A stretch of 64,000 nucleotides of DNA, from positions 1 through 64,000 of the forward strand of contig JAABSP010000014.1 of the NCBI GenBank assembly GCA_011390345.1. Direction: 5' to 3'. Source of the DNA: Desulfobacteraceae bacterium (lineage in GTDB: Bacteria > Desulfobacterota > Desulfobacteria > Desulfobacterales > JAABSP01). Under the pieces are notes generated by a model. That model searched no databases. It was not told where the DNA came from and saw nothing but the letters and a program-made list of their open reading frames with translations. Every line of letters starts with the position of its first letter. The stretch's first letter is position 1. Below, one piece after another: positions 8,761 through 12,929 of the stretch. The translations under genes were made by a program, and so were the position numbers.

Positions 8761-8884
8761 GCCGTTCCTCCGAAAACTTTTGGCTTCTGTGTAATGATGT
8801 TTCAGTGTATCATGAACAGGAAGGTTTCAAAAAGCCTTCGATACAGTTTTTTCGTAACCCTCACCACGACGGAAAGGAAAAGAG

Positions 8885-9979
8885 ATGCTTCAGGATATCG
8901 ACCTGCGGGAACTTGCGGAAATGGAGGGGCCGGAGCGTGCATTCGTGTCGGCCTATCTGACGGGACAGGAAGGGCTGCGGGCCGTCGAAGCCCGGGCCAA
9001 AAAGATTCGGGCCATGCTGAAAGAAGATTCGGACACGAAGACCCATTTCGAGGAGAGCTACAGACTCATCCGGAATCTGCTGGATGAGCACCCGCCTGAA
9101 GAGGGAAAGGGGATGTGCGTCTTTGCCTCGTATGTACTCGATTTTGTCAAGGGCCACCGCCTCTCCGTGGAAGTGCCCAATACCCTCTGCCTTGGGTCTT
9201 CGCCCTATGTCCGCCCCCTTGCCCGGCTGCAGGACACCTTTGAAAAATTCGCCCTGGTAGTCGCGGACAACAGTAATACCCGGATATATCTGGTCGCGGC
9301 ACAAAATATCGAACTGGAGGACCGGGTCAAGGGCGACATCAAAAACCGGGTGAAAAAGGGCGGCTGGTCCCAGAAACGGTACTCCCGCAGCAGAGAAAAC
9401 GAGCTGCACCACTATGCCGAAGAGGTGGCAGAGGCCCTGAAAGCGGTCGATGATCATGAATCCATAGACCATATCATCCTCCTCGGCACCGGCGAAACCA
9501 TCCGGGAGATCGAAAAGGAGCTGAGCGAAGCCCTTTTGGAAAAGGTGATCGGGAAGAAATCCGCGGATCTGGATGCAGAGGTCTCGGAGCTGCTGGAGAG
9601 TGCCTATGAACTCTTCTTCAAAGAGGAGCAGGAGGAGGAACAGCACCTGTGGGAGCGGATTCAGGATGCCTATCTATCGGAGCATCCGGCCGCGGTGGGC
9701 CCAGCAGATGTGCTGATGGCGCTGCTGAACGGCCGCGTGGAGAGCCTGCTGATCACAAAAGATGTGGAGATGGAAGGCAGCCGCTGCCGGGAGTGCCAAA
9801 ACGTCACGGCCGGCCTCCCCGATACCTGTCCCTACTGCAGCAAAACCGATCTGATCCCCATCGACCTGGTCAATGAGATGGTCCGGCAAGCCGAGATGAC
9901 GGATGCGGAGATCGATTTTACCGATCCGATTCCGGAACTGGAAGAGGTTGATGGTGTGGCCGCGCTTCTGCGGTATTGA
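8885..9979 (+). CDS. Bacterial archaeo-eukaryotic release factor (eRF1/Vms1)-like protein
   Basis: 364 residues with three parts. Residues 1-120 are an N-terminal alpha/beta domain. Residues 120-290 match the eRF1 middle-domain type and contain GGWSQKRYSR at 159-168, corresponding to the GGQ-like catalytic loop of release factors (a glutamine is kept at 163). A zinc ribbon follows, with Cys 301, 304, 315 and 318 (CREC and CPYC). Known relatives, including yeast Vms1 and mammalian ANKZF1, cleave peptidyl-tRNA on stalled ribosomes, so this protein could act in ribosome rescue or stress; that is inference. It starts at the ATG at 8885 after GGAAAGGAAAAGAG. It is a single gene with no translation gene nearby. 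Confidence 0.75.
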   Translation: MLQDIDLRELAEMEGPERAFVSAYLTGQEGLRAVEARAKKIRAMLKEDSDTKTHFEESYRLIRNLLDEHPPEEGKGMCVFASYVLDFVKGHRLSVEVPNTLCLGSSPYVRPLARLQDTFEKFALVVADNSNTRIYLVAAQNIELEDRVKGDIKNRVKKGGWSQKRYSRSRENELHHYAEEVAEALKAVDDHESIDHIILLGTGETIREIEKELSEALLEKVIGKKSADLDAEVSELLESAYELFFKEEQEEEQHLWERIQDAYLSEHPAAVGPADVLMALLNGRVESLLITKDVEMEGSRCRECQNVTAGLPDTCPYCSKTDLIPIDLVNEMVRQAEMTDAEIDFTDPIPELEEVDGVAALLRY

Positions 9980-12485: not shown

Positions 12486-12929
12486 CTAAAACGCTCCGAG
12501 CTGACAGGGTTTGATCCGGATGTTCAGGGTTTCGCACCCCCGGCCCACCGTCAGCTTAGGAAGATCCAGGGTCGAGGCGATCTCCCAGGCTTCGGCGCAG
12601 GAGATCCGGCCATCCTGCTGGGCATCGAGGATCTTCTTCTCGAGTTCAGGATCGAGATCTGCCCGATCTTCAAAGGGCTTTGCAATCTTCTTTTTCTCTC
12701 CGTACCCGAAGAGGCCGAGCTGGCATTTGACCAGCCGCAGGTTCATCAGATCCGCGGTTCTCCCCACGGCCCCCGGTTCGACCTGCAGATCTGCGGCCGC
12801 ATCAAATGCGACCGCACATGGAATCTCCCCGTTCTTCTGCCGCTTTGCCAGTTCTGCCTCGACGGCCGGATCGGCCGCGGCATCTGCGCCATGTTTTTCC
12901 GAAAATTTTTTTCCTCCGCCAGTTCCCAT
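12486..12929 (-). CDS. Small protein with an internal duplication, unknown function
   Basis: 147 residues built from two related halves. KRQKNGEIPCAVAFDAAADL...RTADLMNLRLVKCQLGLFG is echoed by DAQQDGRISCAEAWEIASTL...GRGCETLNIRIKPCQLGAF. Each half has one Cys early and a KCQLG/PCQLG motif at its end, so four cysteines are placed symmetrically. The fold may be a pair of small winged-helix or DNA-binding-like units, but I cannot name the family. The N-terminus (MGTGGGKKFSEKHG) is basic and flexible. The ATG at 12929 has an AAAAGGAGC site. It overlaps or abuts mltF, so it is probably the first gene of that unit. Confidence 0.65.
   Translation of the reverse strand: MGTGGGKKFSEKHGADAAADPAVEAELAKRQKNGEIPCAVAFDAAADLQVEPGAVGRTADLMNLRLVKCQLGLFGYGEKKKIAKPFEDRADLDPELEKKILDAQQDGRISCAEAWEIASTLDLPKLTVGRGCETLNIRIKPCQLGAF

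Follow-up and report, generated by a model that had tools for sequence, protein, structure and literature searches.

Does a bacterial protein of the eRF1 superfamily that keeps a release-type loop still free peptides from ribosomes, or does it only put ribosomes to rest? The gene that raises this question lies in the window, by which we mean the whole 64,000-nucleotide stretch of a Desulfobacteraceae bacterium contig that was analyzed, and the initial annotation described its product as a Vms1-like protein from a family whose function is little understood in bacteria. That view of its function is out of date, as the relatives Balon, MSMEG_1130 and Rv2629 are known to act in ribosome hibernation and have cryo-EM structures (PMC10901736). 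These characterized bacterial eRF1 relatives have no glutamine loop motif, and Balon, which has no GGQ, keeps its catalytic center inert (PMC10901736). Members of the clade to which the window protein belongs (hereafter the window clade) retain an invariant release-type loop and appear to have lost stop-codon reading; unlike Balon, the window protein may therefore rescue stalled ribosomes rather than only hibernate them. The family and the idea that it includes hydrolases were published in 2019 and the function of Balon in 2024. New here are a window clade that is purely glutamine-bearing on loop-free trees and is devoid of stop-codon motifs, archaeal orthologues distinct from aRF1, and, in Rhodothermia, coexistence with a glutamine-less (Q-less) paralogue and linkage to rpsA.

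Family assignment and predicted fold

The reading frame opens with an ATG behind a strong ribosome-binding site (Table 1). Its GC and GC3 are similar to those of the adjoining genes, which rules out a recent foreign origin as judged by composition. The best Pfam family is baeRF_family10 (PF18854; 83 bits, E 3.2e-23, above the gathering score of 27.1 bits), with further matches to acVLRF1 (3.2e-13) and eRF1_2 (4.9e-11). The resemblance to the family is thus far beyond chance; the reading frame itself is real. The NCBIfam hibernation-factor (Balon) and aRF1 models matched at 67-74 bits, all far below their cut-offs; for the hibernation equivalogs, the scores were 74 and 67.5 bits where 480 or 320 bits are needed.

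Table 1 Features of the locus, in positions of the window.
Feature	Position	Strand	Basis and remarks
Ribosome-binding site GGAAAGGAAAAGAG	8871..8884	+	directly 5' of the ATG
baeRF-family-10 (Balon/aRF1 superfamily) gene	8885..9979	+	364 aa; open reading frame and ribosome-binding site; Pfam PF18854, E 3.2e-23
N-terminal domain, residues 1-118	8885..9238	+	counterpart of the eRF1 decoding-center domain, no NIKS, no YxCxxxF; AlphaFold model and motif count
Middle domain, residues 119-264, eRF1_2 / RNase H-like fold	9239..9676	+	Pfam eRF1_2, 4.9e-11; Foldseek matches to Balon, aRF1 and eRF1
GGWSQ loop, residues 159-163	9359..9373	+	G159, G160, Q163 and R165 invariant in 41/41 Q-bearing homologues; 159-161 predicted disordered
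C-terminal domain (Pelota/eRF1_3-like), residues 265-364, ending in GVAALLRY	9677..9976	+	Pfam, alignment, AlphaFold model
Zinc-ribbon insert, C301-x2-C304...C315-x2-C318 (CREC...CPYC)	9785..9838	+	aligned with the insert region of MSMEG_1130, which has no cysteines

An AlphaFold model built with 51 homologues (pLDDT 91.6, pTM 0.86), which was used in place of an earlier one built with 9 sequences (pTM 0.48), shows three eRF1-type domains. Together with the Pfam and Foldseek matches, it bears out the initial assignment to the eRF1 superfamily, and the eRF1-type middle domain, which the initial annotation had left to structure prediction, is present. The best PDB match of the model in Foldseek is the Balon hibernation factor MSMEG_1130 (8v9j; E 4.4e-23, TM 0.79, rmsd 3.8 Å). 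With TM 0.79-0.80 and rmsd 3.8-4.0 Å to 8v9j and 8v9l, the predicted structure has the aeRF1-type three-domain fold in the Balon orientation. MSMEG_1130 is followed by aRF1 (4af1, E 5.8e-21), the Balon of P. urativorans and eRF1, with weaker matches to Pelota. The rmsd to aRF1 and most eRF1 chains is ~10-11 Å or more, which we read as a probable difference in domain orientation. A profile search of PDB sequences concurs with the fold match (MSMEG_1130 1.7e-40, aRF1 2e-35).

The loop, the zinc ribbon and the stop-codon motifs

The sequence GGWSQKRYSR spans residues 159-168 of the protein, and both the alignment and the model confirm that it occupies the position of the GGQ loop; the GGQ tripeptide of canonical aRF1/eRF1 is absent, with GGWSQ in its stead. 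Because the first homologue set was partly seeded with KKGGWSQK, which biases its loop conservation, we repeated the searches with whole profiles in the window's phylum, a class containing Rhodothermia, an archaeal phylum and a phylum containing Planctomycetes. The 51-sequence alignment holds 41 glutamine-bearing (Q-bearing) and 10 Q-less rows. The loop glutamine, whose conservation had been named as a check, is found in 41/41 loop-bearing homologues from bacteria and archaea alike, within an invariant GG-x-(S/A)-Q-x-R, while in the Q-less rows the loop drifts. Identity in the Q-bearing rows is 0.71 in the loop versus 0.44 in the body, and in the Q-less relatives it is 0.36 versus 0.49. All members of the window clade keep GGWSQ, and an alignment of 25 sequences from this clade and its archaeal orthologues is invariant at G159, G160, S162, Q163, R165 and R170.

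In the predicted structure, residues 159-161 are the sole stretch with pLDDT below 50, so that the GGW is predicted to be disordered, and Q163 is the first residue of a long helix (163-192). Q163 lies two residues past the aligned catalytic glutamine of aRF1, a position taken by W161. The loop conforms to a type found in active proteins: GxuQ is the form described for active families, with G-W-S-Q contained in GGWSQ, and aVLRF1 and acVLRF1 carry GGxSQ (PMC6514570). In yeast Vms1, release requires G292 and Q295 of the GGSQ (GxxQ) loop, and shortening the loop to GGQ abolishes function (PMC5989216).

The zinc ribbon noted initially is confirmed, its four cysteines (C301, C304, C315 and C318) forming an insert within the C-terminal (eRF1_3/Pelota) domain, with no separate terminal module. 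They are present in 40/41 Q-bearing rows and kept in 7/10 Q-less rows. The ribbon may contact the GTPase or stalk side, where Balon has its EF-Tu-binding β-hairpin. An archaeal metagenome-assembled Poseidoniales sequence (L009:1253-2281) has KKGGWSQKRY without the ribbon; its contig is short, and contamination is possible.

All 21 canonical GGQ- and NIKS-bearing aRF1 rows of the homologue set have NIKS and YxCxxxF, the motifs that read stop codons, versus 0/57 GGxSQ or Q-less family rows. The latter count excludes a NIKS-like match (IKSK) in L087, which was discarded as false since it is located in the C-terminal half.

Phylogeny and genomic distribution

Trees were built from alignments with the loop and ribbon columns removed and with canonical aRF1 as the outgroup. 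In the loop-free tree, euryarchaeal GG[WM]SQ paralogues of aRF1 form the first branch and the bacterial rows a single clade (100/99). Within it, the window clade is supported at 100/100 and is entirely Q-bearing; the glutamine was lost at least twice outside it, in Q-less Balon-like relatives. The bacterial clade also takes in MSMEG_1130 (99/99); this placement rests on a long branch, and the grouping of MSMEG_1130 with non-window bacterial rows is supported at 87/79 only. A quicker tree, built from a larger set of rows that included long ones, places the archaeal GGxSQ rows as sister to the window clade and MSMEG_1130 as basal. Since its deep branches come out somewhat differently, their order is tentative; in all three trees, the window clade is purely Q-bearing.

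The protein resembles several known systems. It shares the full-length three-domain layout and the conserved loop glutamine with baeRF family 10 (PF18854; Burroughs & Aravind 2019). That Pfam family also includes Q-less, Balon-like members, whereas the clade of the window protein is basal, retains GGxSQ without exception and has the four-cysteine ribbon in all but one archaeal row. PF18854 is the top Pfam family for 10/10 representatives tested, Q-bearing and Q-less alike, so that, judged by these matches, the glutamine ascribed to baeRF family 10 (PMC6514570) is a feature of only part of PF18854. With Balon, MSMEG_1130 and Rv2629, the protein shares the fold, the domain orientation and the loss of NIKS, and with MSMEG_1130 the bacterial clade; it has both the GGxSQ glutamine, which MSMEG_1130 and Rv2629 do not have, and the ribbon cysteines, which MSMEG_1130 does not have. 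With aRF1 and eRF1, it shares three domains, a loop on the eRF1-type middle domain and a zinc ribbon at the same site, but it differs in having GGWSQ rather than GGQ and in the missing stop-codon motifs.

Only part of the proposed likeness to Vms1 survived. The loop is of the GGxSQ/GxxQ type of Vms1/ANKZF1 and aVLRF1/acVLRF1, and the archaeal aVLRF1-like L010 and L011 (KKGGWSQKRF) are identical to the window protein over KKGGWSQKR. A specific kinship with Vms1/ANKZF1, however, finds no support, as the trees, the best fold matches and the three-domain layout all point to aRF1 and Balon; aVLRF1 has no C-terminal Pelota domain and other N-terminal parts, while the window protein retains the Pelota domain, and L010 and L011 fall outside its clade in the quicker tree.

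The gene is alone, as initially described, between two opposite-strand genes (DUF362 and EamA). In 6/7 Rhodothermia genomes (L119, L120, L121, L122, L123, which is L006, and L008), the gene immediately upstream of the orthologue is rpsA, which encodes ribosomal protein S1 and shares its strand; the gap is 153-181 bp in the three genomes where the ORF ends are clear. All seven Rhodothermia genomes with the GGWSQ/ribbon protein also have a Balon-like paralogue devoid of the glutamine and the ribbon cysteines (L080-L086 versus L057-L063), which suggests divided roles; the surroundings of these Q-less paralogues show no readable pattern. In archaea, a three-domain GG[WM]SQ paralogue of aRF1 without NIKS (L087-L097) occurs in 11/148 genomes of one phylum, several of which show a second, aRF1-like match; we found no description of this paralogue in the literature. 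The window's phylum has another Q-bearing group, with GGW[SA]Q (L137-L143), whose genes lie in a conserved operon together with putative genes, identified by eye, for a DUF151-type nuclease, TsaE and NAD(P)H-hydrate repair.

A single-sequence search of 58 genomes of relatives gave a match in the bacterium's own genome only (1/58). This pattern suggests that the gene spread laterally, as baeRFs have been proposed to do (PMC6514570). That genome contains tmRNA, and its S30AE (RaiA/HPF) matches are on other contigs (C188 and C36), so that a conserved RaiA/HPF neighbor was discarded. Elsewhere in the window, a 147-aa open reading frame (12486-12929, minus strand) with two similar halves (..LRLVKCQLGLFGYG.. 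and ..IRIKPCQLGAF) has no Pfam match.

Peptide release, hibernation and other readings

We consider it about an even chance (probability roughly 0.5) that the window protein is a stop-codon-independent peptidyl-tRNA hydrolase that rescues stalled ribosomes. It would enter the A site of a stalled ribosome in the manner of Balon and aRF1 with no stop codon being read, insert the GGWSQ loop into the peptidyl-transferase center and, with Q163 helping to hydrolyze the peptidyl-tRNA, act as a release factor. A possible hydrolase activity of baeRF family 10 was predicted by Burroughs and Aravind, 2019 (PMC6514570). The GxxQ-type loop favors release: yeast Vms1 depends on its GxxQ residues for this activity (PMC5989216), in contrast to the GGQ-less, inert Balon. 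The predicted three-domain fold with a disordered GGW ahead of a long helix is consistent with release, as are the invariant loop, the absent stop-codon motifs and the intact ribbon. The divided-role paralogues and rpsA adjacency in Rhodothermia support it too, as does the archaeal GGxSQ protein with its aRF1-like companion in several genomes. On the other hand, Q163 is offset from the aligned aRF1 catalytic glutamine and, in the model, is where a helix begins; tmRNA in the same genome would make a rescue function partly redundant; and the gene is sporadic among relatives.

Taken as a whole, the predicted protein is structurally closest to Balon, a protein that releases no peptides. The main rival is a Balon-type hibernation factor that would obstruct the A site when ribosomes are idle, with no hydrolysis, GGxSQ being an ancestral loop retained for a binding role such as contact around A2602 or positioning of the helix. 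The similar domain orientation, the position of MSMEG_1130 inside the bacterial clade, the presence of RaiA/HPF in the genome and the NCBIfam hibernation models, which are among the top full-length matches but far under their cut-off (74 versus 480 bits), speak for this possibility. We nevertheless regard it as less likely than release, for Balon is described as GGQ-less (PMC10901736), the loop that drifts in Q-less relatives is frozen in the window clade, Rhodothermia carriers already have a Q-less Balon-like paralogue, and the gene is not near RaiA. The shared GxxQ-type loop also brings to mind a bacterial counterpart of Vms1 that would act on split 50S-peptidyl-tRNA complexes in RqcH-type quality control, and NFACT_N is above the cut-off in 12/17 other genomes carrying a window-clade protein. 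This is improbable: no NFACT/RqcH match was found in the bacterium's own genome (97% complete) or in carriers G088, G349, G350 and G676, on which ground RqcH coupling was rejected, and a direct Vms1 orthologue was rejected on the architecture (a decoding-type N-terminal domain and a Pelota domain, unlike VLRF1) and on the trees, which group the protein with aRF1 and Balon. Stop-codon-dependent termination has been raised for full-length baeRFs (PMC6514570) and would suit the aRF1-like layout; with NIKS and YxCxxxF missing throughout the family, we rejected an additional termination factor as very unlikely.

If the window protein is a hydrolase, its clade offers a route from an archaeal release factor to a bacterial hibernation factor. 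Tentatively, the family of Balon could have begun as a stop-codon-independent archaeal release factor that passed to bacteria, the window clade would still release peptides, and hibernation would have arisen at least twice through loss of the glutamine loop. The GGWSQ and Q-less paralogues of Rhodothermia form a clean pair for testing release versus hibernation. In one of these genomes, the open reading frame (L006:7965-9700) runs on for ~200 aa after the conserved C-terminus, and this Pro/Ala-rich tail ends in a hydrophobic, membrane-helix-like stretch; two related genomes have open frames of 557 and 736 aa.
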